64,000 bases of DNA from Hoeflea sp. IMCC20628 (GTDB lineage Bacteria > Pseudomonadota > Alphaproteobacteria > Rhizobiales > Rhizobiaceae): the NCBI RefSeq assembly GCF_001011155.1, contig NZ_CP011479.1, positions 1,444,501 to 1,508,500 of the forward strand, read 5' to 3'. The notes under the pieces are model-generated. The model was not told the origin of the DNA and made no database searches. It saw only the letters and a program-made list of their open reading frames with translations. Shown piece after piece: positions 10,847 through 31,121 of the stretch. The translations under genes were made by a program, and so were the position numbers. Positions within the stretch are counted from its first letter, which is position 1. The number at the start of each line of letters is the position of its first letter.

Positions 10847-12420
10847 CCGCCCAGCCTCTTTGCCAATAGGAAGCCCGATCCGCCTCCAAGCCCCGGACCC
10901 GGATGGGTCGAGGCGCCGATGTGATGCAGGTTTTTGATCGCAGTTGCGTTGTTCTTCGAGTGGGCGAAGGGCCGCCAGATAAAGAACTGGTCGAGCGCAC
11001 AGGATCCGCCATAGGGATCGCCACCGACCAGATTGATATTCATGGTTTCCAGATCGACTGGTGAGTAGGCCTTGCGCGCCAGAACGGAGTTGGCAAACCC
11101 CTCGATGTGGTTGGCGAGGATTGCCTCGATGCGGTCGGCAAAAGCCTCGCGGGTGGCTACGCTCCAGGCACCATCGGTCTCGATCTCACCCGCGGCATCG
11201 CCCTTGATGCTGCGTGGCGCATCGGGGATCTGCAGCCAGAGAATGGATTTGCCATCGGGGCAGCGGCTGGGATCAAGACTGTGCGGCTGGCCGACGCAGA
11301 TGGTCGGCGTTACCGGCAGCATGCCGCGCTCGGCTTCGTTGGATGATTTGGAAACCGAGTCGATGCTTTCGGCCAGGTGGACGAGGGCGACTTGATCCAG
11401 TCCTTCGGTTTTCCAGCGGATCGGTCCATCTATGGCGTAGTGGAGCTGGAAATTGCCGCGGCCATGACGGAACTGGCTGAGACCGGAGGTTGTCTCCTGC
11501 GGAAGCTTTTTCGTGTCGTCGCGCAGAAGCCGGTTGTAAAGCTGTCCCGGCGCTACGGAGCAAATCACATCGGCGGCGGAAATCACGGTGCCATCGGCGA
11601 GCTTGACGCCAGCGGCCTTGTCATCGCGGGTGATGATCTGGTCGACATCGGCATTGGCGCGCAGTTCGCCGCCATTTGCCTCGATCAGGCCTTTGAAGGC
11701 AGCCGCGGCCTGACCGGCGCCGCCCTTGACCACCGGCGCACCGGCCGCTTCCAGCGCAAAGGCAATGACCTTGCCCATCTGGCCGCCATAGGTGGATTCG
11801 GGGGTCAGCCCGGTGTGAAGCGCCCATGGCGCCCACAGAGCCTGGACCAGTTCAGAGGTATAGGTGGTTTCAAGCCAGGCGCGCATCGGGCGCAAGGCTT
11901 CTCCCATCCAGGCGGCAAGACCGCGCAACCCGCGCTTCCAGGCCTGGCTGGCCAGCAATTTGGCTGTCGGCCAGCTCCATAATTCGCCGCCCAGCAGCGC
12001 GAACAGGAAAGGCGCGTCGGTCTCGATCGCTCCGACGTCGGCGCCGTGACGGTCACCGTCGCCGGGAGCAAGGGCGTTGAATGTCTTGATGTTGGCGGCC
12101 CGGTCTGTGGTCAGCACCAGCGAAGAGCCGTCAGGCCGCAGCACCGCTGTGGGGTGCGGCGTATGGCAGAATTCCAGCCCATGCCGCGCCAGATCAGGTC
12201 CGAGCGCGGCATGGGCGGGGGAGGTAAGGAACAGCACAAAGGTTGCCGCCATTACGTCATGGTGGAAACCCGGCAGCGTGATTTCCTCGGTGCGCATGCA
12301 GCCGCCGAAGCGGCTCTCACGTTCGAGAACCAGCACACGCTTGCCTTTGGAGCTAAGCATGGCTGCAGCAACGAGCGCATTGATCCCGCTGCCCACAATG
12401 ATGTGGTCAAAATCTGCCAT
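10843..12420 (-). CDS. NAD(P)/FAD-dependent oxidoreductase, phytoene-desaturase (CrtI/PYROXD2) type
   Basis: A 525-residue flavoprotein. The N-terminus has the dinucleotide-binding fold (IIVGSGINALVAAAMLSSKGKRVLVLE) with a GG motif (RFGGCMRTEE), and the C-terminus has the family's FAD-contact segment (GASTHPGPGLGGGSGFLLAK). It is a paralogue of the gene at 13376, which is divergent from the same operon region: shared stretches include GQP..LDPSR..DGK and NLVGGD. Proteins of this type desaturate or oxidise diverse substrates, so the annotation of carotenoid synthesis should not be taken literally here. Placed between the cyclase-family hydrolase and the MarR gene. A role in oxidising an indole or aminoaryl compound is inference. 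Confidence 0.86.
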   Translation of the reverse strand: MADFDHIIVGSGINALVAAAMLSSKGKRVLVLERESRFGGCMRTEEITLPGFHHDVMAATFVLFLTSPAHAALGPDLARHGLEFCHTPHPTAVLRPDGSSLVLTTDRAANIKTFNALAPGDGDRHGADVGAIETDAPFLFALLGGELWSWPTAKLLASQAWKRGLRGLAAWMGEALRPMRAWLETTYTSELVQALWAPWALHTGLTPESTYGGQMGKVIAFALEAAGAPVVKGGAGQAAAAFKGLIEANGGELRANADVDQIITRDDKAAGVKLADGTVISAADVICSVAPGQLYNRLLRDDTKKLPQETTSGLSQFRHGRGNFQLHYAIDGPIRWKTEGLDQVALVHLAESIDSVSKSSNEAERGMLPVTPTICVGQPHSLDPSRCPDGKSILWLQIPDAPRSIKGDAAGEIETDGAWSVATREAFADRIEAILANHIEGFANSVLARKAYSPVDLETMNINLVGGDPYGGSCALDQFFIWRPFAHSKNNATAIKNLHHIGASTHPGPGLGGGSGFLLAKRLGG

Positions 12421-12447: not shown

Positions 12448-13239
12448 TTAGCCGCGCGCGACCAGCGCCATGGCGCGGATCGGGCTGCCGGTGCCCTTGA
12501 CGATCTTCAGTGGCGCGGCAATCAGGATCGCGCCCTTGGGGGGGAGCTTGTCGAGATTGGCGAGCGAAGCGAGGCCGTATTTGTTGGCAGCATGCAGCAG
12601 ATTGTGCGCCGGGTAGGGCGGTTCCATGCCGCCAGCCTGTCCAGCGTCGGTGCCGATGCACTGGTTGCCCCAGCCGATCACGCCCTTGGACAAGATGTAC
12701 TGAATGCAATCGACAGTCGGTCCAGGCGAATGCGGGCCGGTTTCATCGGCGTTGAGATAAGCCGCTTCATCATTGGAACGGGCGTCCCAGTCAGAGCGCA
12801 TCACAACCCATTCGCCGGCTTTGATTTCGCCATGCTTGGCTTCCCAGGCCTTGACGCCGGCAGCGTCGAGCAGAAAGTCAGGGTTTTTGGCGACTTCAGC
12901 GGAGCAATCGATCACATTGACCGGTGCGACGAAATTCTGCGGCGGGATGGAATCGGTGTAGCCATCGGTGTAGTCCTTGCCGGTGATCCAGTGATGCGGC
13001 GCATCGAAATGGGTACCGGAGTGCTCGCCGAGTTTGAGCCAGTTCCACGCAAAGAACGGACCGTCATTGTCATATTCCGAAATCTTGTGAATTTCGATCT
13101 TGGGCGTGTTCTTGGCAAAATCTTCCGGCAACTGGAGAAGCGGTGTGTCGGGACCCAGCGTGCCGGAGAGATCGATCACCTCGACTTTTCCTTCAATCAG
13201 CATTCCAGCGAGATTACCCAGAGTTTCTGCAGCGTTCAT
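12448..13239 (-). CDS. cyclase-family metal-dependent hydrolase, isatin-hydrolase-like
   Basis: A 263-residue member of the cyclase/kynurenine-formamidase superfamily. The metal-binding motif HSGTHFDAPHHW (near residue 73) is intact, and the C-terminal layout (IGTDAGQ, then EPPYPAHNLLH, then LIAAPLKI) resembles long members such as isatin hydrolase of Labrenzia rather than the shorter KynB. Isatin hydrolase opens isatin to isatinate; kynurenine formamidase cleaves N-formylkynurenine. Both would fit this island. The ATG at 13239 has GGGGAGAG upstream and is chosen over a longer in-frame option at 13281. First gene of the operon that ends with iorB. Family certain, substrate inferred. Confidence 0.82.
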   Translation of the reverse strand: MNAAETLGNLAGMLIEGKVEVIDLSGTLGPDTPLLQLPEDFAKNTPKIEIHKISEYDNDGPFFAWNWLKLGEHSGTHFDAPHHWITGKDYTDGYTDSIPPQNFVAPVNVIDCSAEVAKNPDFLLDAAGVKAWEAKHGEIKAGEWVVMRSDWDARSNDEAAYLNADETGPHSPGPTVDCIQYILSKGVIGWGNQCIGTDAGQAGGMEPPYPAHNLLHAANKYGLASLANLDKLPPKGAILIAAPLKIVKGTGSPIRAMALVARG

Positions 13240-13375: not shown

Positions 13376-14950
13376 GTGCAAAACGAATATGATGCGGTCA
13401 TAGTGGGCGCCGGTGTGAACAGCTTGGCTTGCGCTGTTCACCTGGGGGCGAAAGGCTGGCGTGTCGGCGTTTTCGAACAGGCAGGCAAGCCTGGCGGAGC
13501 CGTCAAGACGCTGGAGTTGACCTCGCCGGGGTTTCGGCATGACTGGGCTGCGATGAATCTCAGTCTCTTTGCAGGTTCCGTGTTTTTTAGGACATACGGG
13601 GAAGACCTGATAGGTCATGGTCTTGAATTCGCTCCTGCCTCCAACTGTTTCGCCAGTGTTTTTGATAATGGCAAATGGCTCGGTGTCAGCACCGGGCCGG
13701 GTGAGACGCGGGCACGGATCGCAGCGTTCTCGGAGGCGGATGCGAATGCCTGGGATCAGCTTTGCACAGACTTCCCCGGGACTGCGGAATATATCTTCGC
13801 GCTTCTCGGAAATCCCATGCAAATGCATATACAAGGCAAGCTCCTGGCAAAAGCGCTGTTCCGCAAGGGCTTTTCCTGGACGGCTGATCTGGTGCGTTTG
13901 CTGCTGTCGTCGCCGCGCAAATGGCTGACGGAGACATTTCAATCCGATCATGTGCGAGCCACCATGGCCACCTGGGGCATGCATCTGGACTTTGCGCCCG
14001 ATATGGCTGGCGGTGCAGTGTTTCCCTATCTTGAATCGATGGCCAACCAGCATTTTGGCATGGTCATCGGCAAGGGCGGCGCGGACACGCTGACTCGGGC
14101 GATGGTGGCCAAGATCGAAGCTTCCGGCGGCGCGGTTCATTGCGGCAGCCGCGTGGCGCGTATTGTCCGCAAGGGCGGCAAGGCGACAGGTGTCGAGCTT
14201 GAAGACGGATCCGAGATCACGGCAAAGCGGGCAGTTATTGCCAATGTTGCGCCCTCCGGGCTGATGAATTTGCTCGACGGGCAATCCGGCGATTCAGCGT
14301 TTGATGGCAAGATGGTCAAATTCACCCATGCGCCGGGAACCATGATGATCCATCTGGCTCTCGATGGTCTGCCGGATTGGGCGGCCAGCGAAGAACTCAA
14401 GACATTTGCCTATGTCCATATTGCGCCATCACTCGATCAGATGGCCCGCACTTACCAGCAAGCGGTCGCAGGGCTGTTGCCGGATGAACCGGTGTTGGTT
14501 GTCGGGCAGCCGACGGTCGTTGACCCGAGCCGGGCACCCGAAGGCAAACATGTGCTCTGGGTTCAGGTTCGCATGGTGCCGGGCGAGATCCGCGGCGATG
14601 CGGCCGGCAAGATCACGGAAACCGACTGGGCAAAGGTCAAAGAGATCTATGCCGATCGCGCGCTGGAAATGATCGAGCGGCATGCGCCGGGCTTGAAGGC
14701 GAAGATCATCAGCCGCGCCGTCGTCTCGCCACTGGATCTGGAAGCCGACAATCCGAATCTGGTCGGTGGCGATCAGATCGCCGGCAGTCACCATCTTTCA
14801 CAGAATTTCCTGTTTCGTCCGGCCTTGGGCCACGCCACTGGAAAGACCCCCGTTGACGGTCTGCATCTCACCGGAGCCAGTGTCTGGCCTGGTGCGGGGA
14901 CCGGAGCGGGCGCAGGGTATATGCTCGCTCAGAAACTGGGCGGGAAATGA
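13376..14950 (+). CDS. NAD(P)/FAD-dependent oxidoreductase, phytoene-desaturase type (paralogue)
   Basis: A 524-residue flavoprotein starting with GTG (protein MQNEYDAVIVGAGVN); GGAG at 13362-13365 supports it. The FAD-binding fold is at residues 5-35, followed by GKPGGAVKTLE, and the C-terminal FAD segment reads HLTGASVWPGAGTGAGAGYML. It is clearly homologous to the product of 10843-12420 along its whole length but well diverged. It is the first gene of the rightward operon with an ABC importer and a kynureninase-like enzyme, so it probably acts on the imported compound or on a product of the PLP enzyme. Reaction unknown. Confidence 0.86.
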   Translation: MQNEYDAVIVGAGVNSLACAVHLGAKGWRVGVFEQAGKPGGAVKTLELTSPGFRHDWAAMNLSLFAGSVFFRTYGEDLIGHGLEFAPASNCFASVFDNGKWLGVSTGPGETRARIAAFSEADANAWDQLCTDFPGTAEYIFALLGNPMQMHIQGKLLAKALFRKGFSWTADLVRLLLSSPRKWLTETFQSDHVRATMATWGMHLDFAPDMAGGAVFPYLESMANQHFGMVIGKGGADTLTRAMVAKIEASGGAVHCGSRVARIVRKGGKATGVELEDGSEITAKRAVIANVAPSGLMNLLDGQSGDSAFDGKMVKFTHAPGTMMIHLALDGLPDWAASEELKTFAYVHIAPSLDQMARTYQQAVAGLLPDEPVLVVGQPTVVDPSRAPEGKHVLWVQVRMVPGEIRGDAAGKITETDWAKVKEIYADRALEMIERHAPGLKAKIISRAVVSPLDLEADNPNLVGGDQIAGSHHLSQNFLFRPALGHATGKTPVDGLHLTGASVWPGAGTGAGAGYMLAQKLGGK

Positions 14951-14972: not shown

Positions 14973-16505
14973 ATGAAACAGATTTCGCGTCGCACGATAC
15001 TCAAGGGCTCGGCAGCAGCGCTGGCGATCAGCGCCTTTGCCGGGCCGTCGTTTGCTCAGGGCATCGATGAACTTGTCATCGCCTATAATGTGAACTTGCC
15101 GTCTTGGGATCCGACTGTCGGCCCGTCGGCGGTCAATCCGACAATCCAGGGGATCTACCAGTCGGTTTTCGACCAGTTCATCCTGCAGAAGCCCGACCTG
15201 TCGCCGGCGCCCGGTCTTTTGACCGATTGGGGTTGGAACGATGACAAGACCAAGGTCATGATGACGGTGCGCGAAGGCGTCACCTGGCATGACGGGTCGC
15301 CATTTACCGCCGAAGACGTCGCCTGGTCGTTGACCCGTGCGGCTGACGAGACAACCGGCAATCCGATCCAGTTCATCTGGTCGACGCTGGCCAACATCAA
15401 GGCCGAAGGCAATGTGGTGACGGCTGACGTCGCCCGCTTTGAGCCGACGATCTTCAAATGGATGTACTTCCTCACCGGCTATGTGTTGCCCAAGGCCTAC
15501 TATGAAAAGGTCGGCGCGGACGGGTTTGAAGCTGCTCCGATCGGCACCGGCCCCTATATGGTCGACAAGTTCGAGCGCAATGCGTTTGTGCGGCTGAAGG
15601 CCAACCCGAACTACTGGGGCGGCAAGCCTGACTTTGAAACCGTGACCATCAAGTTTGTCACCGACGCCGCAAGCCGCGTCGCCGAAATTGAATCCGGCAA
15701 TGCCCACGTCACGCTGGAAATGCCCTACGAGGAATATGACCGCCTCAAGGGCGGCAACGGTATCGTCGGCACTGCCGCTCCGATTTCCGACATTGGCATG
15801 ATCTTCCTCAATGACATCGATGTGATGCTGGATCCGAACGTGCGCATGGCTGCTGCCATGTCGATCGACAAACAGCTGATCATCGACCGGTTGCTGTCAG
15901 GCTACGGTGTTGCCCTTGATACGCTGGAGACGCCTGAATACACAGCCTACGATGCGTCGATCAAGGTTCCGTACAATCCTGAAAAGGCCATGGAACTGCT
16001 GGCCGCTTCCGGCTACTCACCGGAAAACCCGGTGAAGTTCAAGATCCAGACCACGCGCGGCTTCAAGCCGAAGGATTATGAAATGATCCAGGCCATTGTC
16101 GGCCTGTGGCGCAAGGTCGGTATCGAAGCCGAAATCGAAGTCTACGAAATCGCCAAGCATTATGAACTGCGCGCCGCCGACCAGCTCGCACCGGCTGCGT
16201 TCTACAACTGGGGCAACTCGGTTGCTGATCCGACGACATCGACCGGCTTTGCCATGTTCGGCCCTACACCGCATTCGGTGTGGGACGGTCAGGATCTCAT
16301 CGACATGATCGGCCCGCTCTGGGGCGAGGCTGACGAAGAGAAGCGGATTGATGGCTGGAAGGCGGTCGACAAGTACATTGCCGACAACGCGCTGGTGATC
16401 CCGCTGTTGCAGTATGTGCAGCCGATCCTTCATGCGGATGGCATCGAAGTGACGCCGCATGCTTCGGGCGCACTGCTTCCGCATCTGATGAAGCGGGTTT
16501 CGTAA
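14973..16505 (+). CDS. ABC transporter substrate-binding protein, family 5, Tat-exported
   Basis: A 510-residue periplasmic binding protein. The start at 14973 follows AGGGAGAAC and gives a twin-arginine signal (ISRRTILKGSAAALAISAFA, cleavage near SFAQG). A longer upstream in-frame extension overlaps the previous gene and is rejected. SBP_bac_5 landmarks include VREGVTWHDGSPFTAEDVAW and IGTGPYMVDKFE. It is only distantly similar to the protein encoded at 3574, so the two importers probably take different ligands. A perfect terminator hairpin separates it from its permease genes, which usually makes the binding protein more abundant than the membrane parts. Confidence 0.93.
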   Translation: MKQISRRTILKGSAAALAISAFAGPSFAQGIDELVIAYNVNLPSWDPTVGPSAVNPTIQGIYQSVFDQFILQKPDLSPAPGLLTDWGWNDDKTKVMMTVREGVTWHDGSPFTAEDVAWSLTRAADETTGNPIQFIWSTLANIKAEGNVVTADVARFEPTIFKWMYFLTGYVLPKAYYEKVGADGFEAAPIGTGPYMVDKFERNAFVRLKANPNYWGGKPDFETVTIKFVTDAASRVAEIESGNAHVTLEMPYEEYDRLKGGNGIVGTAAPISDIGMIFLNDIDVMLDPNVRMAAAMSIDKQLIIDRLLSGYGVALDTLETPEYTAYDASIKVPYNPEKAMELLAASGYSPENPVKFKIQTTRGFKPKDYEMIQAIVGLWRKVGIEAEIEVYEIAKHYELRAADQLAPAAFYNWGNSVADPTTSTGFAMFGPTPHSVWDGQDLIDMIGPLWGEADEEKRIDGWKAVDKYIADNALVIPLLQYVQPILHADGIEVTPHASGALLPHLMKRVS

Positions 16506-16522
16506 GCCTCGACTATAAATAC

Positions 16523-16555
16523 GGACCGCCGCCACAGTGCGGCGGTCCTGTTTTT
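16523..16555 (+). terminator. intercistronic terminator/attenuator hairpin
   Basis: Perfect 10-base-pair stem GGACCGCCGC / GCGGCGGTCC (16523-16532 and 16539-16548) with a six-base loop, followed by TGTTTTT. It lies between the binding-protein stop (16505) and the permease start (16570). It can act as a partial terminator that lowers expression of the downstream membrane genes. Confidence 0.82.
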
Positions 16556-16569
16556 CAGGACATTTTGAT

Positions 16570-20113: not shown

Positions 20114-20172
20114 GACCGAAAAGATAACGGATTTGGCAGCACTTTTGATAGGTGAGGCCCAAGGAGATGGAC

Positions 20173-21333
20173 ATGACGGACACAACAGGCCAGCGCGACA
20201 CCGATGGGTCAGGTTACTTTCTCTATCATTCAATCGGGCAATATCCCGACAAGGCCGTTGATATGGCCAAGTCCCTGACCGCTTTCGCGGAGTGCTGGGG
20301 TGCGCCAAATGACGATCAATGGGGCTATGCGCTGGGCCAGAGGCAGCGCTTCATCGATCTGTGGAGCCAGTTGCTCAAGGCGCCATCAGCGTCGCTGACC
20401 ACAACGGAAAATGTCACATCGGCGCTGGCTGCATTAATCATGGCGCTGCCCAGGGATGACCTTGAGGGCAGGGTGGTGCTGGTGGCGGGCGACTGTTTCC
20501 CGAGCCTGCATTTCCTGCTCACCGGGCTGGCCGACCGCTACGGATTCACGCTGCGCACAGTGCCGCTGCGCGATGGCGCCAATTGGGTTGAGGACGAAGA
20601 TGTCATCGCAGCCTGGGGTCCCGAGGTCGGGCTGGCGTTGCTGACCTGGGTCAGTTCCACCTCTTCGCACCGTTGTGATCTCACCACGCTGATGGCGCAT
20701 GGCCGCAAGCAGGGTTCGGTGATCGGCGTCGACATCACCCAGGCTGCCGGACTGATCGATTATGACTGCATGGCTGTGGCCGCCGATTTTTCGATTTCGA
20801 CCAGTCTCAAATGGATGTGTGGATCTCCGGGGGGCGGCATCCTGCAGGTGATGCCGGATGTCATCGCCCGCTGTCAGCCGAGCCTGCGCGGCTGGTTCAG
20901 CCAGGACAATATTTTCTCCTGGGACATCAACACATTCGCCTATGCGCCGGATATCCGGCGGTTTGACAATGGCACGCCCTCTGTGATGGCCTGTGCGGCC
21001 TCGGTTCCGGCGCTGGAATGGCATGCGTCTCAGGATTGGAGCGCGCAGCTTGAAAAGAATCGCGCCTATTGCACCCAGATCATTGCCGCCTCCGACGCCG
21101 CCGGTTTCGAACTGGCCTCCCCGCGGGATGCTGATCACCGCGGCGGCAGCGTGATGATGAAATTGCCCGATGATACCGATCCGCAAGGCTTGCTGGCTGA
21201 CCTGCGCGCTCGCTCGGTTTTTGCCGACGCGCGTGGACCGCTGCTGCGCTGTTCGCCTGGGTTCGTCACCACTCAGGCCGGTGTCGACCGGTTGGCAGTG
21301 GCGCTGGGCAGCCTCCGGCGCAATTCGGTCTAG
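20173..21333 (+). CDS. kynureninase-like PLP-dependent enzyme (class V aminotransferase fold)
   Basis: A 386-residue fold-type I PLP enzyme. The ATG at 20173 has AAGGAG six bases upstream (20161-20166); an ATG directly next to that site is rejected. The PLP lysine is in STSLKWMCGSPGG near residue 218, with Asp in VIGVDITQAAG just before it. Other kynureninase-family marks are RGWFSQ, RFDNGTPSV, HRGGSVMM and DARGPLLRCSPGF. It is clearly different from the true kynureninase at 29089. Probable roles are a C-C beta-kynureninase-like cleavage or a related lyase on the compound taken up by the importer of the same operon. Exact substrate unknown. Confidence 0.82.
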   Translation: MTDTTGQRDTDGSGYFLYHSIGQYPDKAVDMAKSLTAFAECWGAPNDDQWGYALGQRQRFIDLWSQLLKAPSASLTTTENVTSALAALIMALPRDDLEGRVVLVAGDCFPSLHFLLTGLADRYGFTLRTVPLRDGANWVEDEDVIAAWGPEVGLALLTWVSSTSSHRCDLTTLMAHGRKQGSVIGVDITQAAGLIDYDCMAVAADFSISTSLKWMCGSPGGGILQVMPDVIARCQPSLRGWFSQDNIFSWDINTFAYAPDIRRFDNGTPSVMACAASVPALEWHASQDWSAQLEKNRAYCTQIIAASDAAGFELASPRDADHRGGSVMMKLPDDTDPQGLLADLRARSVFADARGPLLRCSPGFVTTQAGVDRLAVALGSLRRNSV

Positions 21334-21397: not shown

Positions 21398-21442
21398 CAT
21401 AAAAAGTTTATGCTTGAAATATCTCCTGTCAGGCATATGATT
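21398..21442 (+). promoter_or_regulatory. candidate promoter/operator of the anthraniloyl-CoA operon
   Basis: An inverted repeat CATAAA-AAG-TTTATG (21398-21412) is followed one base later by TTGAAATATCT (21414-21424). TTGAAA can serve as a -35 box with TATGAT at 21436-21441 as -10 (16-base spacing). The same 11 bases, again directly after an inverted repeat, occur at 31157-31167 before the cupin gene. A strong GGAGG for the first gene follows at 21464. Shared control by one of the local MarR regulators is inferred. Confidence 0.5.
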
Positions 21443-21476
21443 GTGGCAATTGAAAATCATGCTGGAGGTGCGGAAC

Positions 21477-23771
21477 ATGAAGGTAGCTTGCTTGGGCGGT
21501 GGTCCCGCTGGCCTCTATTTCGCAATCTCGATGAAGCTGCGCGATCCGTCGCATGAGGTTGTCGTCATCGAGCGCAACAAGGCCGATGACACCTTCGGCT
21601 GGGGTGTGGTTCTTTCCGACGAGACCCTGGACAATCTGGCTGAAAACGACCCAGTCAGCGCTGCCTCGATCCGTGAGCACTTTGCCTATTGGGACGATGT
21701 CGCTGTCGACTTCAAGAACACAAAGACCGTTTCGACCGGCCACGGCTTCTGCGGCATCGGCCGCAAGAAACTGCTGTTGTTGCTGCAGGCGCGGGCCAAG
21801 GAGCTTGGCGTCGAGTTGCGGTTTGAAACCAATGTTTCGAGTGCCGCCGATTACGCCAAGGATTTTGACCTGGTGGTGGCCGCTGATGGGCTAAATTCGC
21901 GCACCCGCACCGAATTTGCCGACAAGTTCCAGCCCGAAATCGATGTGCGCAAGTGCCAGTTCGTCTGGCTCGGCACGCATCAGAAATTCGATGATGCTTT
22001 CTCCTTCATCTTCGAGGAAACCGACAAGGGCTGGCTTTGGGCTCATGCCTATCAGTTCGATGATGAGACCGCGACGTTCATCGTCGAGTGCACCCAGGAG
22101 ACCTTCGACGCTTATGGCTTTGGTGAGAAGAGCCAACAGGAAACCATCGCCATCTGCGAGAAGATTTTTGCCAGGCATCTGGGTGGTCACAGCCTGATGA
22201 CCAATGCCAATCACGTTCGCGGCTCGGCCTGGATTCAGTTCCCGCGGGTGCTGTGCGCGCGCTGGAGCCATGAGAACATCGTGCTGATGGGTGACGCTGC
22301 GGCGACAGCGCATTTCTCCATTGGCTCGGGCACCAAGCTGGCACTGGAAAGCGCGATTTCGCTGGCCAACGACCTGCATTCCGAACCGACCTTGGAAAAG
22401 GCCTTCGCCAAATATGAAGACGAGCGGCGGCTTGAAGTGTTGCGGCTGCAGTCGGCGGCGCGCAACTCGATGGAGTGGTTCGAGGAAATCGAGCGCTATT
22501 TCCACCTCGATCCGGTGCAGTTCACCTATGCGCTGCTGACCCGTTCACAGCGTATCAGTCATGAAAACCTGCGCATGCGCGATGCCGAATGGCTCGAAGA
22601 CGCCGAACGCTGGTTCCAGACTCAAGCCGAGGTTTCGGCGCAGGCGCCGCTGCGGCGGCCGATGTTTGCGCCTTACAAATTGCGCGACATGAAGCTCAAG
22701 AACCGCATCGTGGTCTCGCCGATGGCGCAGTACAAGGCGGTCGATGGCTGCCCGACCGATTGGCATCTGGTGCATTATGGCGAGCGCGCCAAGGGCGGCG
22801 CCGGTCTGGTTTACACCGAGATGACCTGCGTATCGCCGGAAGGCCGGATCACCCCGGGCTGCCCCGGGCTCTACGCCCCGGAGCAGGAAGCGGCATGGGC
22901 GCGGATCGCTGCCTTCGTTCACAGCGAGAGCGAAGCCAAGATCTGCATGCAGATCGGTCATTCCGGCGCCAAGGGCTCGACCCAGCTCGGCTGGGAAACC
23001 ATGGATGCGCCGTTGAAGGACGGCAACTGGCCAATCCTGTCGGCGTCCGACGTGGCCTGGTCGTCGGCCAACCAGACGCCCAAGGTGATGGACCGGGCGG
23101 ATATGGACATGGTGCGCGACCAGTTTGTCGCCGCCACCGAAATGGCCGACCGCGCCGGGTTCGACATGATCGAAATCCACATGGCGCATGGCTATCTGCT
23201 GTCTTCCTTCATCACCCCGCTGACCAACCGGCGCGACGACGAGTATGGCGGCAGCCTGGAAAACCGCATGCGCTATCCGCTTGAGGTCTACCGGGCCGTG
23301 CGCGAGGCCTGGCCGCAGCACAAGCCGATTTCGGTGCGTATTTCAGCCAGCGACTGGGTCGAAGGCGAAGGCGTTACGCCACAGGAATCGGTCGAGATCG
23401 CACGCATGCTCAAAGATGCCGGCGTTGATATCTGTGATGTTTCTGCCGGCCAGACCTCCAAGTTGGCCAAGCCGGTCTATGGTCGCATGTTCCAGACGCC
23501 GTTCGCCGACCGGATCCGCAACGAAGCGCAGATGGCGACCATGGCGGTGGGCAACATCTACGAACCCGATCACGTCAATTCGATCCTGATGGCCGGCCGC
23601 GCCGATCTGGTCTGCCTGGCCCGTCCGCATCTGGCCAATCCTTACTGGACCTTGCATGCTGCAGCGGCGCTGGGCGACCATGACGAAAAATGGCCCGATC
23701 CCTATCATCCCGGACGTGACCAGATGTGGCGTCTGGCCGAGCGCGCCGACACCATGCTTGGAAAGGTCTGA
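21477..23771 (+). CDS. anthraniloyl-CoA monooxygenase/reductase (FAD monooxygenase fused to old-yellow-enzyme domain)
   Basis: A 764-residue two-domain flavoenzyme. Residues 1 to about 385 are a class A FAD monooxygenase: [10 protein letters not shown] at the start, GLNSRTR near 137 and [16 protein letters not shown] near 270. Residues from about 395 on are an old-yellow-enzyme-like NADH:flavin reductase ([34 protein letters not shown]). This fusion is shared by 2-aminobenzoyl-CoA monooxygenase/reductase (EC 1.14.13.40) and proteins labelled bifunctional salicylyl-CoA 5-hydroxylase. The former hydroxylates and reduces anthraniloyl-CoA to 2-amino-5-oxocyclohex-1-enecarboxyl-CoA. The CoA ligase, kynureninase and TDO in the same operon strongly favour anthraniloyl-CoA. 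GGAGG precedes the ATG. Confidence 0.9.
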
Positions 23772-23773
23772 CC

Positions 23774-24535
23774 ATGTCGGAACTGTTGGGGCATCACGCG
23801 ATTGTCACCGGCGCCGGGTCAGGCGTGGGAGAAACAATTGCGCTGGCCTTGGCGGCACGCGGCGCGCGGGTGACGGCCATCGGACGTCGTCTCGAGCCGT
23901 TGCAGGTTCTGGCGAAGAAGGATGACAGAATCACGGCCGTTTCCGCCGATGTCACCGACGCCAATGCCATGGCCGCTGCAATAGAAGAGGCCATTGAGAT
24001 CAATGGCGTGCCGACAATCGTCATCGCCAATGCCGGATCTGCGGAAAGCGCACCCTTTCACCGCACCAGCGTCGAGAGTTTCCGCTCCACGCTCGATGTC
24101 AATTTGACCGGCGTTTTCAATACCTTCCAGTCTGCTTTTGTGAAAATGAATCGGAAGCAGCCAGGCCGCCTGATTGCGGTTGCATCGACAGCCGGTCTGA
24201 AGGGCTATCCCTATGTCAGCGCCTATTGCGCCGCCAAGCACGGGGTCGTCGGCCTGGTGCGCAGCCTGGCGCAGGAATTGGCAAAGACCGGTGTGACCGT
24301 CAACGCCATCTGCCCGGGATTTACCGACACGCCGATGCTTGAGCGGTCGATTGACAACATTGTTGAAAAGACCGGACGATCACGGTCAGAAGCGGAAGCC
24401 TCGTTGCGCGATGTCAATCCACAGGGCAGGTTCATTCAGCCGGATGAAATCGCGGAAACGGTGATCTGGCTTTGCAGCGATGCCGCGGCCTCCATGACGG
24501 GCCAGGCAATCTCATTGTCGGGAGGGGAAACATGA
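23774..24535 (+). CDS. SDR-family oxidoreductase
   Basis: A 253-residue short-chain dehydrogenase/reductase. It has the cofactor motif TGAGSGVGE near residue 13, NAG near 87, catalytic Ser in VASTAGLKG and YxxxK as YCAAK near 155. It starts two bases after the monooxygenase stop and its own stop overlaps the MarR start. In the hybrid pathway a reductase or dehydrogenase is needed for the 5-oxo or a 3-hydroxyacyl-CoA group of the ring intermediates; this gene is the candidate. That assignment rests on position only. Confidence 0.88.
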   Translation: MSELLGHHAIVTGAGSGVGETIALALAARGARVTAIGRRLEPLQVLAKKDDRITAVSADVTDANAMAAAIEEAIEINGVPTIVIANAGSAESAPFHRTSVESFRSTLDVNLTGVFNTFQSAFVKMNRKQPGRLIAVASTAGLKGYPYVSAYCAAKHGVVGLVRSLAQELAKTGVTVNAICPGFTDTPMLERSIDNIVEKTGRSRSEAEASLRDVNPQGRFIQPDEIAETVIWLCSDAAASMTGQAISLSGGET

Positions 24536-25032
24536 CCAAAAGCGCAGCAGCCCAACAGACCACAATGGAGTCCGGCGCCAAGGACAAGGCAGCGTCAAAG
24601 GCGCGGCTGCGGCTATGGCTGAAGCTTCTCAAAGCCACAAAGCACGTCGAGGGCGAGTTGCGGGAAAACCTGCGCGTCTCTTTCGATACCACGCTGCCGC
24701 GCTTTGATGTGATGGCAGCACTCTACCGTGCCGAAGCCGGTCTCAAGATGAGTGAATTGTCGAGTGTGCTGCGGGTTTCCAACGGCAATGTCACCGGCAT
24801 TGTCGACCGGCTGGTCGATGACGGCGTACTGGTGCGGGTTCCGGTCGACAATGACCGTCGCGCCACCACGGTGCGGCTGACCAAGGCGGGACGCGAGCAG
24901 TTTGCAGTGATGGCTGTCAGCCATGAGGCCTGGGTCGACACCCTGCTTGAAGGCATCGATGCGAGCGAAGTCAAGGATATGTCAGATCAGCTTGAGCTCA
25001 TCGCCCGCAAGAGTTCCAAGGGAAAGGCCTGA
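24532..25032 (+). CDS. MarR-family transcriptional regulator (operon-internal)
   Basis: A 166-residue winged-helix regulator beginning at the ATG at 24532, which overlaps the SDR stop (ATGA) and follows GGAGGGG. The DNA-binding part runs from about residue 55 to 125 ([19 protein letters not shown], wing [15 protein letters not shown]). Regulators of this type beside aryl-CoA ligases often sense the CoA thioester product, so anthraniloyl-CoA is a reasonable effector guess. It is different from the MarR protein at 10355. Candidate sites are the inverted repeats at 21398 and 31138. Confidence 0.9.
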
Positions 25033-25036
25033 ATTC

Positions 25037-25840
25037 ATGACGACAGATACCCCCAAGACCTTCCGATTGAGCCTGACCGATGGTGTGGCCGAAATCTCGC
25101 TGGACCGGCCGGAGCGGAAAAATCCTCTGACATTTGAAAGCTATGCCGAGCTGCGCGACTGGTTTCGCGGCCTGGTCTACCGGGATGACATCAAGGTGGT
25201 GATCTTCGGCTCCAATGGCGGCAATTTCTGCTCCGGTGGTGATGTGTTCGAGATCATCGGACCGCTTGTCGACAAGGACATGAAGGGCCTGCTCACCTTC
25301 ACCCGGATGACCGGCGATCTGGTCAAGGCCATCATTGGCTGCGGCAAGCCGGTGATTGCGGCGGTTGACGGCGTCTGCGCCGGCGCCGGGGCGATCATTG
25401 CCATGTGCAGCGATTTGCGGATGGCCACGCCGGAAGCCAAGACGGCATTCCTGTTCAACCGTGTCGGGCTTGCCGGCTGCGACATGGGCGCTTGCGCCAT
25501 CCTGCCGCGGATCATCGGACAGGGCCGGGCGGCTGATCTGCTTTACACCGGCCGTTCGATGAGCGCCGAGGAAGGCGAACGCTGGGGCTTTTACAATCGC
25601 GTCGTCGCGGCGTCCGAGATCGAAGACGAAGCGCGCAAGCTGGCCCGGCGGATCGCTGACGGTCCGGCATTTGCCAACATGATGACCAAGACCATGCTGG
25701 CGCAGGAATGGAACATGGGCATCGAGCAGGCGATCGAGGCCGAAGCCCAGGCACAGGCAATCTGCATGAAGACCGAGGATTTTCGCCGCGCCTATGAGGC
25801 CTTCGTATCGAAACAGAAACCCGTTTTCGAGGGCAACTGA
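25037..25840 (+). CDS. crotonase-family protein lacking both hydratase glutamates
   Basis: A 267-residue crotonase. The oxyanion-hole segments are there ([13 protein letters not shown] near residue 68; [15 protein letters not shown] near 115). At the two positions that carry the catalytic Glu residues of classical enoyl-CoA hydratase (GGGCEL and the QPEI segment) this protein has Ile (GAGAII) and Arg (FNRVGL). An Asp is present in [10 protein letters not shown], where PaaG-type isomerases have one. Plain hydration is therefore unlikely; isomerisation, thioester hydrolysis or C-C ring cleavage of a cyclic beta-oxoacyl-CoA are options. GGAAAGG supports the ATG at 25037. It overlaps the next gene by one base. 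Confidence 0.87.
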
Positions 25841-27006
25841 TGTCAGACCGCAGCTTTCTTGCCTGGCCGTTTTTCGATGCACCCCACCGGGATCTGGCTG
25901 ATCGCGTCGATGAATGGGCGACCGCCAATATTGTCGATATTGACCATTCCAATGTCGATGATGCCTGCAAAGCGCTGGTCAAGTCGCTTGGCGATGCAGG
26001 ATGGCTCAAGTTGAGTGCTGTCGATCCGACTGACGAGAACTCGCGCATTGATGTGCGGAGCCTGTGCATTCTGCGCGAAACCCTGGCTCGTCATGACGGG
26101 TTGGCCGATTTCGCATTTGCCATGCAGGGCCTCGGCACCGGTGCGATCTCGCTGTTCGGTACGTCGGCGCAGAAAACCGAGTGGCTGACGAAGACCCGTG
26201 CAGGCAAGGCTTTGTCAGCCTTTGCGCTGTCAGAACCGGCTTCGGGGTCGGATGTGGCCAATATCGCCATGACCGCAACGCGTGATGGCGATGAATATGT
26301 TCTGGATGGTGAAAAGACCTGGATCTCCAATGGCGGCATCGCCGATGTCTACACCGTTTTTGCCCGCACCGGCGAAGCGCCGGGCGCCAAGGGGTTGTCG
26401 GTTTTCATCGTGCCGGCCACCACGCCGGGTCTCGAGATTGCCGAGCGGCTTGAGGTGGTTGCGCCGCATCCGCTGGCACGGTTGAAATTTACAAACTGCC
26501 GGGTGCCTGCCACGGCAATGATCGGCAAGCCCGGTGAGGGATTTCGCATCGCCATGTCGGTGCTTGATGTGTTCCGCTCCACCGTTGCTGCTGCGGCACT
26601 GGGCTTTGCCCGCCGGGCGCTTGATGAAAGCCTCGACCGGGTCAGCGAACGTCAATTGTTCGGCGCGCCGATGAGCGACCTGCAAATGGTGCAGGGGCAC
26701 ATTGCCGAGATGGCGCTTGATGTCGACGCCTCGGCGCTGCTGGTCTACCGGGCGGCCTGGCTCAAGGATCAGGGCGCGCCGCGCGTCAGCCGCGAAGCCG
26801 CAATGGCCAAGCTCTATGCCACCGACCATGCCCAGGATGTGATCGACAAGGCGGTGCAGCTGCATGGCGGCGACGGCGTCCGCAAGGGTCATATCGTCGA
26901 AAGCCTGTACCGGGAAATACGCGCTTTGCGGATTTATGAGGGCGCATCAGACGTCCAGAAGGTCGTGATCGCGCGGCAGACATTGGCCAATTCCAAGGGG
27001 GTATAA
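25840..27006 (+). CDS. acyl-CoA dehydrogenase family protein
   Basis: A 388-residue flavin-dependent acyl-CoA dehydrogenase. FAD/substrate segments are FALSEPASGSDVANIAMTA and EKTWISNGGIADVYTVFAR. The catalytic base is the Glu of LRIYEGASDVQ near residue 370, as in short- and medium-chain enzymes. It should oxidise a saturated CoA thioester from ring opening, passing electrons to an electron-transfer flavoprotein not in this window. Start overlaps the crotonase stop by one base; the ligase follows one base after the stop. Confidence 0.9.
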   Translation: MSDRSFLAWPFFDAPHRDLADRVDEWATANIVDIDHSNVDDACKALVKSLGDAGWLKLSAVDPTDENSRIDVRSLCILRETLARHDGLADFAFAMQGLGTGAISLFGTSAQKTEWLTKTRAGKALSAFALSEPASGSDVANIAMTATRDGDEYVLDGEKTWISNGGIADVYTVFARTGEAPGAKGLSVFIVPATTPGLEIAERLEVVAPHPLARLKFTNCRVPATAMIGKPGEGFRIAMSVLDVFRSTVAAAALGFARRALDESLDRVSERQLFGAPMSDLQMVQGHIAEMALDVDASALLVYRAAWLKDQGAPRVSREAAMAKLYATDHAQDVIDKAVQLHGGDGVRKGHIVESLYREIRALRIYEGASDVQKVVIARQTLANSKGV

Positions 27007-27007
27007 A

Positions 27008-28636
27008 ATGCTGGGACCATCGGGGCATGTCGATACGTTCACGCGGGACAACCTGCCGCCGGCTGAGCAGTGGCCGGATTTGCCGCTTGATGGTTTTGAA
27101 TATCCGGAGTGGCTGAATTGCGGCTATGAGCTGACCGATGCGATGGTGGCCAGGGGATTTGGCGACCACACCGCGCTGATCGGCAATGGCCGGATCAGGA
27201 CCTACAAGGAACTGACCGACTGGACCAACCGCATGGCCCATGTGCTGGTCGAGGATTACGGCGTCAAGCCGGGCAACCGCATCCTGATCCGCTCGGCCAA
27301 CAACCCTGCCATGGTGGCAGTGTGGCTGGCGGCGACCAAGGCCGGTGCCGTGGTGGTCAACACCATGCCGATGCTGCGCGCAGCCGAGTTGGGCAAGATC
27401 GCCGACAAGGCGGAAATCACGCTGGCGCTGTGCGACACGCGACTGATGGACGAGATGGTGGCCTGCGCCAAGGTAAACCGGTTCCTGGACAATGTCGTGG
27501 GCTTCGATGGCACGGCCAATCATGATGCCGAACTCGACCGTCTGGCGCTGTCGAAATCTGTTCGCTTTGACACCGTGAAAACCGGACGAGATGACGTGGC
27601 GTTGCTTGGTTTCACCTCCGGAACCACCGGCATGCCAAAAGCGACGATGCATTTTCACCGCGACATGCTGATCATCGCTGATGGTTATGCTAAGGAAGTG
27701 CTCGGCGTGACGCCGGACGACGTGTTTATCGGCTCGCCGCCGCTGGCCTTCACCTTCGGACTGGGCGGCCTGGCGGTGTTCCCGCTGCGCTTTGGCGCGG
27801 CCGCGGCCCTGCTTGAGCAGGCGACGCCGGCCAACATGGTCGAGATCATCCAGAACCACAAAGCCACCGTCTGCTTTACCGCACCGACCGCCTATCGCGC
27901 CATGCTGGCGGCGATGGAGGAGGGGGCGGATCTGTCCTCGTTGCGCGCTGCGGTATCGGCCGGCGAGACCTTGCCCGGCCCGGTCTATGAGCAATGGATG
28001 GAAAAGACCGGCAAACCGATGCTCGATGGCATTGGCGCCACCGAGATGCTGCATATCTTCATCTCGAACCGGTTTTCCAATTCCCAGCCTGCCTGCACCG
28101 GACTGCCGGTCGGTGGCTATGAAGCGCGGATCGTTGACGAGAACATGACCGAATTGCCGCGCGGTGAAGTGGGCCGGCTGGCGGTGCGTGGCCCGACCGG
28201 ATGCCGCTATCTCGCCGATCCGGAACAGCAGCAGAAATATGTCCGCGATGGCTGGAACTTGACCGGCGATTCCTTCACCCAGGACGAGGACGGCTTCTTC
28301 CATTTCGCCGCCCGCAGTGACGACATGATCATCTCGGCGGGCTACAACATTGCTGGCCCTGAGGTTGAAGCCGCACTGCTGGCGCATGCCTATGTCGCCG
28401 AATGCGCCGTGGTGGGTGTTCCCGACGAGGCGCGGGGCCAGATCGTTCAGGCGCATGTGGTGCTCAAGGCAGGCTCTGTGGCGGACGCGCTGATGACCAA
28501 GCTGTTGCAGGACCACGTCAAGCAGGTAATCGCGCCCTACAAATATCCCCGGTCGATCATCTTCACCGAAACACTGCCAAAGACACAGACCGGCAAGATC
28601 CAGCGTTTCAGGCTGCGGTCCGGCGACGCGGCTTGA
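27008..28636 (+). CDS. 2-aminobenzoate-CoA ligase (benzoate-CoA ligase family)
   Basis: A 542-residue adenylate-forming enzyme. It shows the P-loop-like FTSGTTGMPKATMH near residue 200, GIGATEMLHIF near 343, LTGDSF near 417 and the C-terminal lysine in LPKTQTGKIQR. The N-terminus (VDTFTRDNLPP then WP) is typical of anthranilate/benzoate-CoA ligases. It activates anthranilate with ATP and CoA and supplies the monooxygenase/reductase encoded upstream. The substrate assignment is supported by kynureninase and TDO downstream, which make anthranilate from tryptophan. Specificity against benzoate or salicylate cannot be settled from sequence. Confidence 0.88.
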   Translation: MLGPSGHVDTFTRDNLPPAEQWPDLPLDGFEYPEWLNCGYELTDAMVARGFGDHTALIGNGRIRTYKELTDWTNRMAHVLVEDYGVKPGNRILIRSANNPAMVAVWLAATKAGAVVVNTMPMLRAAELGKIADKAEITLALCDTRLMDEMVACAKVNRFLDNVVGFDGTANHDAELDRLALSKSVRFDTVKTGRDDVALLGFTSGTTGMPKATMHFHRDMLIIADGYAKEVLGVTPDDVFIGSPPLAFTFGLGGLAVFPLRFGAAAALLEQATPANMVEIIQNHKATVCFTAPTAYRAMLAAMEEGADLSSLRAAVSAGETLPGPVYEQWMEKTGKPMLDGIGATEMLHIFISNRFSNSQPACTGLPVGGYEARIVDENMTELPRGEVGRLAVRGPTGCRYLADPEQQQKYVRDGWNLTGDSFTQDEDGFFHFAARSDDMIISAGYNIAGPEVEAALLAHAYVAECAVVGVPDEARGQIVQAHVVLKAGSVADALMTKLLQDHVKQVIAPYKYPRSIIFTETLPKTQTGKIQRFRLRSGDAA

Positions 28637-28673: not shown

Positions 28674-29084
28674 ATGATCGAAGCAGTCAATCCACCGGAT
28701 TGGGAGAAGCCAAAGGGCTACTCGAACGGCATGCTTGTTGACGGCGAGCGGCTTTACACCGGCGGCCAGATTGGCTGGAACAAGGATCAGGTCTTCGAGC
28801 ACACGGATTTCGTGGGCCAGCTCGAGCAGACACTGGCCAATATCGTGGCAATCGTGCATGCCGCGGGTGGCGAGGTCTCTGATATTGTGCGTCTGACCTG
28901 GTTCATCACCGACAAGAAGGAATATGTTGCACGCCAGAAGGATGTCGGCGCTGCCTATCGCAAGGTCATGGGCCGGCATTTCCCCACCATGTCGGTGATC
29001 GTGGTCGCCGGTCTGATCGAGGATGCGGCGATGGTCGAAATCGAGGCGACAGCGGAAATCGGCAAGTCGCAGAAGGAAGCGTGA
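28674..29084 (+). CDS. ridA: RidA-family (YjgF/UK114) enamine/imine deaminase
   Basis: A 136-residue RidA protein. It has the small trimeric-barrel layout with NGMLVDGERLYTGGQIGWN, NIVAIVHAAGGEVSDIVRLTWFI and a C-terminal MVEIEATAEI. In RidA the active-site Arg lies in the segment VRLTWF here, which is consistent with activity on imines. GAGGAA precedes the ATG. In this operon a special task is conceivable: the monooxygenase/reductase product is an enamine, and hydrolysis of such a group would release ammonia. The alternative is general removal of 2-aminoacrylate. Confidence 0.88.
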   Translation: MIEAVNPPDWEKPKGYSNGMLVDGERLYTGGQIGWNKDQVFEHTDFVGQLEQTLANIVAIVHAAGGEVSDIVRLTWFITDKKEYVARQKDVGAAYRKVMGRHFPTMSVIVVAGLIEDAAMVEIEATAEIGKSQKEA

Positions 29085-29088
29085 TGTC

Positions 29089-30282
29089 ATGACTGATTTT
29101 TCAGCAAGCCGGGCCAAGTTCGATCTTCCTGCGGGCATCACCTATCTCGATGGCAATTCGCTCGGGCCCTTGCCCAAGGCTGCTGTTGAACGGGCCCGCA
29201 AGACAATCGCCGATGAATGGGGCCCGATGCTGATCACCGGCTGGACCAAGGCCCAGTGGATGGATCTTCCGGCGCGTCTGGGCGATCGAATCGGCCGTCT
29301 GATCGGTGCGCCCGCGGGCAGCACCGTGGTCGGCGACACCTTGTCGATCAAGGTCTACCAGGCGGTCGCCTCCGCGGTGGAACTGCGTCCCGGACGCAAG
29401 ATCGTGCTGTCCGACAACGGCAATTTCCCTAGCGATCTCTACATGGCCGACGGTCTGCTCAAGAGTCTGAAGCAGGGGCATGAGTTGAAGATCGTCGATC
29501 CGGAAGCCGTGGCTGATCATATCAACGAGGATGTGGCAGCCGTGATGCTGACCCAGGTCGATTACCGCACCGGCCGGCTGCACGACATGAAGGCAATCAC
29601 CGCCAAGGCCCATGCCAGCGGCGCGGTGATGATTTGGGATCTGGCGCATACCGCCGGTGCGTTGCCGATTGATCTGACCGGCTGCAACGCCGACATCGCG
29701 GTCGGCTGCACCTACAAATATCTCAATGGCGGCCCCGGTGCACCGGGATTCATCCATGTACGTCCGGATCTGATCAATCAGGTTCGTCCGGCGCTGTCGG
29801 GCTGGCTCGGACATCAGGCGCCGTTTGCGTTTGATCTCGATTACCGTCCAGGCGAGGGCATCAGCCGTATGCGCGTCGGCACGCCACCGGTGATCCAGAT
29901 GGCGGTGCTGGATGCAGCACTTGATGAATTCGATGGCATCGCCATGGAAGACATCCGCAGCCGCTCGATCGAGCTGTCCGAGCAGTTCATTGCCGAGGTC
30001 GAAGCCGGCTGCAAGGAAGTGAAGCTTGCCAGCCCACGTGATCCGCATGCGCGCGGTTCGCAGGTCTCATTCCGCTTCCGCGAAGGCTATGCGGCGATGC
30101 AGGCGCTGATCGCCCGCGGGATCATCGGTGACTTCCGCGCGCCCGACATCATGCGCTTCGGCTTTTGCCCGCTCTACAATACGCCCGACGAGGTCTGCCA
30201 TGCGGCTGCCGCTTTGTGCGAGATCATTGCAACAGGTGAATGGGACCAGCCGGCGTTCAAGACCCGGAAAGCCGTCACATGA
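29089..30282 (+). CDS. kynU: kynureninase
   Basis: A 397-residue PLP enzyme of the kynureninase family that splits L-kynurenine into anthranilate and alanine. Marks are [13 protein letters not shown] at the start, [11 protein letters not shown] near residue 108, the Asp of [13 protein letters not shown] near 184 and the PLP lysine in [15 protein letters not shown] near 210. The C-terminal part contains RMRVGTPPV and [14 protein letters not shown] at 29073 supports the ATG at 29089. The next gene, TDO, starts inside the stop codon. Product anthranilate feeds the ligase in the same operon. Confidence 0.95.
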
Positions 30283-31121
30283 GCGAGCCCAAGGACTACG
30301 ACCCTTCCAAGGAAGGGGCGGAGATGAATTTCGACGGCCGCATGTCCTATGGCGACTATCTTTGCATCGACCAGATTCTTGGTGCGCAGAAGGTCAGGAC
30401 CGACGCCCATGACGAGATGCTGTTCATCATCCAGCACCAGACTTCGGAACTGTGGATGCGGCTGGTGATCCATGAAATCACCGCTGCACGAGAGGCCATC
30501 AAGGGCGATCATCTGCAGCCGGCGATGAAGACCCTGTCACGGGTTTCGCGGATATTCGAACAGCTGAACTCGGCCTGGGATGTGCTCAGGACCATGACGC
30601 CTGCCGATTATACCCATTTTCGCAACAAGCTCGGCCAGTCCTCCGGTTTTCAGTCGCTGCAATACCGGCTGATCGAATATGCGCTGGGAAACCGCAATCA
30701 CGCCATGATGCGTCCGCATGCACATGTCCCGGAAGCCATGGCCAAGCTCGAAGCCGAACTGGCCCAGCCAAGCCTTTATGACGAAGCCATAAGACTGGCG
30801 GCAAGGCGTGGCGTTAACATGCCTGACGAGGTGCTGTCGCGCGATGTGCGCAATACCCACGAGCTGCATGATGGCGTGACTGCTGGCTGGAAAGTGATCT
30901 ACGAAGACCCGGAGAAACACTGGGCGCTTTATGAGGTTGCCGAAAAGCTGGTCGATCTGGAAGACTATTTCCGGCGCTGGAGATTCAACCATGTCACCAC
31001 GGTGGAGCGGGTGATCGGGCTCAAGCGCGGCACCGGCGGCACCGGCGGCACCAGCTATCTTCGGCGCATGCTGGATGTGGAGCTGTTCCCGGAACTCTGG
31101 CGGGTACGCACCGAATTGTAG
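30279..31121 (+). CDS. kynA: tryptophan 2,3-dioxygenase
   Basis: A 280-residue heme enzyme that opens the indole ring of tryptophan to N-formylkynurenine. Conserved parts are [20 protein letters not shown] (active-site His near residue 56), SGFQSLQYR, the heme-ligand region [15 protein letters not shown] near 240 and [11 protein letters not shown] near 250. The length is normal. It is the last gene of the nine-gene operon, overlapping kynU by ATGA. No KynB-type formamidase lies beside it; the cyclase-family hydrolase at 12448 is the only candidate in the window. Confidence 0.96.

Follow-up and report, generated by a model that had tools for sequence, protein, structure and literature searches.

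The gene at 20173-21333 (+) raises the question of what a second, divergent kynureninase-like enzyme does beside a true kynureninase, which is encoded at 29089 in the same window (the whole 64,000-nucleotide stretch of DNA analysed here, from a genome of 5.1 Mb). The gene is confirmed as real. Its open frame runs from a GTG at 20152 to the stop at 21333, and translation from the ATG at 20173, the start given in a preliminary description of this DNA, yields a product of 386 residues. That description saw an enzyme separate from the 29089 protein that nevertheless keeps the PLP lysine and the general kynureninase layout, and both points are borne out by the comparisons below.

The protein belongs to the class V superfamily by its score against Pfam Aminotran_5 (PF00266; 62.1 bits, cut-off 21.5), and it lies barely above threshold for KYNU_C (27.5 bits, cut-off 27); two of its relatives among the plasmid matches listed bear the annotation 'aminotransferase class V-fold PLP-dependent enzyme'. 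An AlphaFold2 model built with 41 family members (pLDDT 91.8), together with its fold matches, identifies a fold-type-I PLP enzyme, with the PLP lysine at Lys213 (counted from the ATG) in 73 of 73 aligned rows. A single comparison with the 29089 kynureninase gives 27% identity across 373 columns (E 3e-25), so the resemblance is beyond chance, and the best solved relative is the Pseudomonas fluorescens kynureninase 1qz9 (phmmer 6.6e-16; Foldseek 6.8e-25). The VIA comparison of the model with 1qz9 returned Z 38.9 and rmsd 2.5 A for 363 residues at 22% identity, with cysteine desulfurases tied on Z-score (within 1), so that the fold alone cannot single out KynU. The curated kynureninase model TIGR01814 accepts the 29089 protein (265.7 bits, cut-off 246.4); the 20173 protein is absent from its matches at E <= 0.001, a threshold at which 31 of the 41 clade members scanned do match it (best E 2.3e-22). 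With the models for EgtE (TIGR04343; 51.6 bits, cut-off 400) and SufS (TIGR01979; 41.8 bits, cut-off 475.1) the 20173 protein scores far short of the cut-offs, and both models are matched weakly by all 41 members scanned.

Relatives at E <= 1e-3 are encoded by 222 stretches that a pattern scan picked out of species genomes; the best 80 of these (53-86% identity) were retained as loci for comparison. A tree built from 73 class V proteins groups 22 members (2 of the 23 chosen loci being missing from these rows) in one clade (SH-aLRT 100), which is sister to the kynureninases (SH-aLRT 96) and separate from the remaining class V enzymes in the sample; this is a quick tree whose own checks warn of long branches, and in it the 20173 protein does not group inside the kynureninase clade. 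Nor does it cluster in this tree with class V aminotransferases that have a different function, an outcome that would have spoken against a kynureninase-like enzyme.

Active-site positions were counted in 73 rows (the window protein and 72 of the 80 loci, the other 8 having been lost by the ORF caller) against 11 kynureninases, with P. fluorescens residue numbers taken from the phmmer alignment to 1qz9; a separate alignment of the clade, A1, was made from the window protein and 40 of the 80 loci. Ser36, Trp64, Phe129, Asp201, Lys227, Trp256, Thr282 and Arg375 of the P. fluorescens enzyme are kept. Here we take Lys227 to be the PLP lysine, Arg375 to hold the substrate carboxylate, and Ser36, Trp64, Phe129, Trp256 and Thr282 to be pocket positions; the arginine corresponds to Arg359 of the 20173 protein (72/73 rows). 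By contrast, Tyr226, a catalytic acid/phosphate ligand, is replaced by Leu (Leu212) and His204 by Gln (Gln190) in every one of the 73 rows, both residues being present in 11 of 11 kynureninases. Asn35 is changed to His and Gly258-His259 to Ser-Gln throughout the 73 rows, and Asp132 to Leu in 72 of them. With the carboxylate and aryl-pocket positions kept and Tyr226 replaced, the substrate is expected to be aryl-alanine-like, with different chemistry at Cgamma. Because the curated model and the two active-site residues fail, we do not file the protein as a kynureninase, and propose that it may work like one. It is like KynU (TIGR01814; 1qz9, 2hzp/3e9k) in fold, PLP lysine, carboxylate arginine and pocket positions, and in a predicted Cbeta-Cgamma cleavage giving alanine; it is unlike KynU in its low identity to 29089 and 1qz9, in its separate clade, in the changes at positions 226, 204, 132 and 35, and in its partner, an isatin hydrolase.

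The neighbourhood of the gene is given in Table 1. It is the last in a row of genes read in one direction (FAD oxidoreductase, family-5 binding protein, two permeases, two ATPases, PLP enzyme), in agreement with the preliminary description, which had noted an importer and a flavoenzyme in the same direction. A promoter-like match at 21414-21441 (10 of 12 positions), one of 2 such sites found in the region where shuffles gave 0.6, lies in the gap behind it, suggesting that the ring-degradation genes beyond this gap may form their own transcription unit. The first of these encodes what we take to be an enzyme of the 2-aminobenzoyl-CoA monooxygenase/reductase type. Judged by their families, the genes at the far end (28674-31121) are the ordinary kynurenine entry into the ring pathway, which the 20173 route would also feed.

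Table 1. Features of the window around the kynureninase-like gene
Feature	Position	Strand	Remarks
IorB-like subunit	5938..7521	-	PRK08312 family, 677.7 bits, cut-off 348
IorA-like 2-oxoacid:acceptor oxidoreductase subunit; predicted isatinate -> 2-aminobenzoyl-CoA	7525..9672	-	TIGR03336 272.5 bits, below cut-off 650.9; adjoins isatin hydrolase in relatives
Glyoxalase/VOC-fold protein, N terminus signal-peptide-like (by eye)	9698..10294	-	
MarR-family regulator	10355..10846	-	
CrtO/phytoene-dehydrogenase-like FAD oxidoreductase, adjoins isatin hydrolase	10843..12420	-	all listed models below curated cut-offs
Isatin hydrolase B orthologue	12448..13239	-	best match 4j0n/4m8d, E 1.7e-140; TIGR03035 27.2 bits, cut-off 223.05
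Paralogous FAD oxidoreductase, first gene of importer run	13376..14950	+	36% to 10843 protein
Family-5 (Opp/Dpp-type) solute-binding protein	14973..16505	+	
Two permeases	16537-17580, 17546-18424	+	BPD_transp_1; second with OppC_N
Two ABC ATPases	18421-19299, 19262-20113	+	
Kynureninase-like fold-type-I PLP enzyme; predicted dioxindolylalanine C-C lyase (isatin-forming)	20173..21333	+	
Salicylyl-CoA 5-hydroxylase/oxidoreductase family	21441..23771	+	PRK08255, 1304.6 bits, cut-off 1078
Ring-degradation genes: SDR, MarR, enoyl-CoA hydratase family, acyl-CoA dehydrogenase-like, benzoate-CoA-ligase-like	23774..28636	+	PRK08258 above cut-off; TIGR02262 358.7 bits, cut-off 375.25
RidA family protein, true kynureninase (29089-30282), tryptophan 2,3-dioxygenase (30240-31121)	28674..31121	+	

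Several further features of these loci were recorded. The two CrtO-like FAD oxidoreductases flank the isatin hydrolase on both sides in the window, and near relatives of the 20173 gene the 10843 type occurs in 15/80 loci and the 13376 type in 21/80; they recur next to isatin hydrolase and, as a guess, might oxidise oxindolylalanine or dioxindole. In Mesorhizobium loci, relatives of the VOC-fold protein stand between the genes for the importer and those for the monooxygenase. Next to the IorAB genes lies another Dpp-like pair of permeases with a binding protein (1277-5181, by eye). The binding protein of the importer run gives no ligand clue beyond its peptide/nickel/opine-type family. Importer type differs between genera (Opp, family-3 binding protein ABC, or TRAP, e.g. 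L054, L061, L062, L063 and Mesorhizobium L104), so the Opp importer is not a constant partner: the importer link previously proposed holds for the window, but not for any one transporter. Other PLP genes also recur near the enzyme in other genera (at L049:12364-13533 and L099:12854-14149, among other loci), namely a class I/II aminotransferase family in 19/80 loci and a second class V PLP protein in 16/80 (one member of each family was checked).

The partner that stands out is the protein at 12448-13239. It is the orthologue of the crystallised isatin hydrolase B (LaIHB, 4j0n) of Labrenzia aggregata, and the metal motif HxG[T/A]HxDxPxH, as quoted in the available text of PMC6117287, occurs in it as HSGTHFDAPHH. 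It thus resembles the LaIHA/LaIHB pair, and has Phe for LaIHA Trp59 and Ala for LaIHA Gln219, as LaIHB does. An isatin hydrolase lies within the retained flanks of 33 of the 80 loci (26 of 56 among loci of at least 20 kb), 9 of the 80 being near-copies from Hoeflea. None was found in 9 control kynureninase loci outside the Hoeflea-type cluster (0/9 vs 33/80, Fisher 0.024), these being 13 regions less 3 of that cluster and 1 lacking a kynureninase. Their flanks are mostly 5-9 kb long, those of the 80 loci as much as 10 kb. In the remaining 47 of the 80 loci the retained flanks hold no isatin hydrolase. Tryptophan dioxygenase (TDO) is near the enzyme in only 9 of 80 loci.

Where the two genes are neighbours, their arrangement varies. 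In 6 of 80 loci (L057, L083, L087, L095, L098, L109), all metagenome-assembled genomes by their titles, the PLP enzyme is followed by the isatin hydrolase in one stop-free frame, which in L095 ends at the contig end, inside the hydrolase. The ATG at the usual hydrolase start is kept in five of the six (the exception being L095), so separate translation of the hydrolase is possible; a plasmid collection contained no record covering 80% of a joined protein. The metal motif is kept in all five complete joined hydrolase domains, as are the residues at LaIHA positions Trp61, Trp80, Tyr204 and His207 (located by manual counting from the motif). A wider tree requires two changes to account for the six joined proteins, and one common origin is possible. 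The two genes are also divergent neighbours on opposite strands, 124-136 bp apart, in L060, L069, L071, L073, L075 and L076, and stand in tandem with 62 bp between them in G706. Two kinds of apparent fusion were rejected, namely extended open frames at some of the distant isatin hydrolases and a 745-residue frame round the PLP gene in G560; both look like chance upstream extensions. In one genome of the same genus (G001), a 47-codon match between ATPase and monooxygenase genes (L154:10598-10738) is all that corresponds to the PLP gene, and the isatin hydrolase, FAD enzymes and importer are kept.

Co-occurrence was also counted at the level of genomes. Among 297 genomes of the same family (threshold E <= 1e-50) the enzyme is found in 40 and isatin hydrolase in 98, the latter in 38 of the 40 genomes with the enzyme vs 60 of the 257 without it (Fisher 7e-19, a value that ignores kinship). 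The enzyme is present and the hydrolase was not found at this threshold in G487 and G710. The hydrolase lies within 20 kb for 19 of the 41 enzyme loci. As a prediction test, we searched 24 genomes, corresponding to 24 of the 47 loci whose retained flanks lack the hydrolase and partly overlapping the family sample (identical coordinates). Isatin hydrolase was found elsewhere in 23 of these 24, in 21 of them at 60% identity or more, and IorA likewise in 23; in one genome that has the enzyme (G741, L108), isatin hydrolase and IorA both failed to reach the thresholds applied. A class-wide sample of 385 genomes was too sparse to add weight, the enzyme occurring at E <= 1e-50 only in its own genome and G214, both with isatin hydrolase.

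With isatin hydrolase the strongest partner found and TDO so seldom near, the evidence suggests as substrate dioxindolylalanine, the 3-hydroxyoxindole amino acid 3-hydroxy-2-oxindolyl-alanine that arises by oxidation of tryptophan. The earlier supposition of a substrate other than kynurenine appears likely to hold; its more specific part, a modified kynurenine or another beta-oxo amino acid, is not supported, given the isatin hydrolase partner and the scarcity of TDO. We consider it somewhat better than an even bet (probability about 0.55) that the 20173 protein is a PLP-dependent carbon-carbon lyase splitting imported dioxindolylalanine into isatin and alanine, with isatin hydrolase and IorAB then leading to 2-aminobenzoyl-CoA. 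The clade, its residue changes, its gene linkage and the shared reading frames are observed; what the enzyme acts on and makes, in which order the steps run and what the importer does we infer from them. Several observations weigh against this reading: context does not prove a substrate, the retained flanks of 47 loci lack the hydrolase, G001 keeps the neighbourhood with so short a match to the PLP gene, G741, G487 and G710 depart from the pairing, 60 of 257 genomes have the hydrolase and no such enzyme, and the two conserved FAD enzymes are given no part in it.

The enzyme would have evolved next to kynureninase. In kynureninase, a ketimine is formed, water is added to give a gem-diol, and Cbeta-Cgamma cleavage yields a carboxylate and an enamine (PMC7461572, in the portion available). 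In the proposed reaction the PLP ketimine would form in the same way; dioxindolylalanine is a tertiary alcohol, so no added water would be needed, and a retro-aldol step would break the Cbeta-Cgamma bond to give isatin directly, along with an enamine that becomes L-alanine. A reaction in the opposite sense is on record: alanine and isatin are reported to give a gamma-hydroxy amino acid of m/z 237 with Aro8/TyrB (PMC13397446, partial text), a product whose structure and mass suggest that it is dioxindolylalanine. The same partial text cites UstD and KynU as related nucleophilic-aminoacrylate enzymes. UstD, a decarboxylative aldolase, and Aro8/TyrB resemble our proposal in the chemistry described, a nucleophilic aminoacrylate joining the alanine Cbeta to a carbonyl, and Aro8/TyrB share its use of isatin; according to that text they differ in working in the synthetic direction, the aminotransferase reaction being non-native and UstD starting from aspartate. 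As for supply, the excerpted text of PMC8228365 places dioxindolylalanine among the major tryptophan degradation products, and the importer would bring in the free amino acid or peptides carrying it.

Downstream of the lyase, isatin hydrolase B would convert isatin to isatinate (2-aminophenylglyoxylate), and an IorAB-type enzyme would take this 2-oxoacid to 2-aminobenzoyl-CoA, a step proposed because the enzyme family has known chemistry on 2-oxoacids. The ring would then be degraded by the neighbouring flavin monooxygenase/reductase and beta-oxidation-like enzymes. The downstream genes are like those of the 2-aminobenzoyl-CoA pathway (salicylyl-CoA 5-hydroxylase family), the difference being the proposed extra feed by isatinate oxidation, in which no CoA ligase takes part. 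IorA is matched in 21 of the 80 loci, the match spanning half of the protein or more in 13 and being an end piece in 8, and 20 of the 21 also have isatin hydrolase; phmmer at E <= 0.001 found no solved relative of IorA. Two Mesorhizobium loci for which the genomes were fetched (L167, L168) reproduce the order of the window, IorB-IorA-MarR-FAD-isatin hydrolase and then, divergently, FAD-binding protein-permeases-ATPases, continuing with VOC, monooxygenase, SDR, MarR, hydratase, dehydrogenase and RidA; in L104 and L099 the PLP enzyme comes after RidA, after or near a GntR-family gene. Isatin hydrolase and IorA are 2.1-2.4 kb apart in all 10 Mesorhizobium genomes searched. A close CoA ligase (78-79%) is present in only 4 of the 10, on other contigs, the other six having distant CoA ligases only (30-34%), and a ligase-free entry, from isatinate directly to 2-aminobenzoyl-CoA through IorAB, would fit this distribution.

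The auxin-degradation (iad) locus is among the known systems closest to such a route. In the available text of PMC9613470 and PMC12633357 it shares isatin and isatinate intermediates, IorAB-type IadA/B, MarR and, by description, a formamidase-annotated amidase, IadI. It differs in its entry, where a Rieske oxygenase (IadCDE), a CoA ligase and a thiolase act on indole-3-acetate, and the portions available mention no PLP enzyme, unlike the loci described here. The partial texts of PMC6117287, PMC9613470 and PMC12633357 tie isatin to auxin breakdown, and that of PMC6117287 likewise mentions no PLP partner.

Other readings must be weighed against the lyase. A substrate closely related to dioxindolylalanine, whether ring-hydroxylated or halogenated, peptide-bound, or an auxin-derived oxindole conjugate, would account for the same linkage and sits well with the varying importers, and isatin as an auxin (iad) breakdown intermediate, with the recurrence of IorAB and amidase-like IadI (PMC9613470, PMC12633357, both in part), speaks for it too; we nonetheless think such substrates unlikely, since the carboxylate arginine is kept and a free alpha-amino acid is the expected substrate of the PLP enzyme. 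Rather unlikely, in our view, is a second kynureninase, perhaps preferring N-formylkynurenine or a ring-modified kynurenine, with the neighbouring 'isatin hydrolase' acting as its kynurenine formamidase. The shared fold and sister clade agree with this, as do the related folds of formamidases and isatin hydrolases (PMC6117287, partial text), and nothing encoded in the genome reaches the cut-off of the arylformamidase KynB model TIGR03035 (best 41.8 of 223 bits, at C1:3402029), despite the kynureninase and tryptophan 2,3-dioxygenase at 29089-31121. That best match is another cyclase-family protein (G000:C1:3402017-3402391). However, the protein at 12448-13239 scores lower still against this model and is an LaIHB orthologue, Tyr226 and His204 are lost in all rows, TDO is rarely near, and the recurrent IorAB would be left with no role. 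On the residues, the LaIHB orthology and the model scores, we rejected the plain second kynureninase with the hydrolase as formamidase.

A carbon-sulfur lyase of the EgtE or cysteine-lyase type, splitting an oxindole cysteine conjugate to a precursor that isatin hydrolase could use, is suggested by the C-DES, SufS-type and EgtE proteins that rank among the next hits in the sequence and structure comparisons, and by the faint EgtE and SufS model matches across the family. It is quite improbable and, as an EgtE/SufS-type enzyme, was rejected: the scores lie far below the curated cut-offs and the tree places the clade with the kynureninases; we know of no abundant oxindole-cysteine conjugate. Finally, the protein could be an unrelated accessory PLP enzyme, such as an aminotransferase, that shares mobile catabolic islands with isatin genes by association alone. 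The 47 loci whose retained flanks lack the hydrolase, and the genome G001, which retains the hydrolase beside a mere remnant-length match to the PLP gene, agree with this, but the six shared reading frames, the co-occurrence in 38 of 40 genomes and the adjacency in different arrangements make it very improbable.

Among the papers listed in searches of open-licence literature, none showed a microbial route for dioxindolylalanine use and none joined isatin hydrolase with kynureninase. We put at even odds the broader claim that dioxindolylalanine lyase (isatin-forming) is a new activity, from a clade split off from kynureninase, that serves salvage of oxidised tryptophan in which no CoA ligase is needed, a single polypeptide carrying out the first two steps in some bacteria. 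If the dioxindolylalanine lyase reading is true, the kynureninase fold would gain a physiological retro-aldol reaction, one that mirrors the isatin-alanine coupling used in biocatalysis (PMC13397446, partial text), and isatin hydrolase would have a second metabolic source of its substrate beside auxin. The gene would then be a marker, open to testing, for the use of oxidised tryptophan in Hoeflea, Mesorhizobium and Sulfitobacter-type bacteria, and its linkage to isatin hydrolase suggests an undescribed bacterial route for feeding on oxidised tryptophan.
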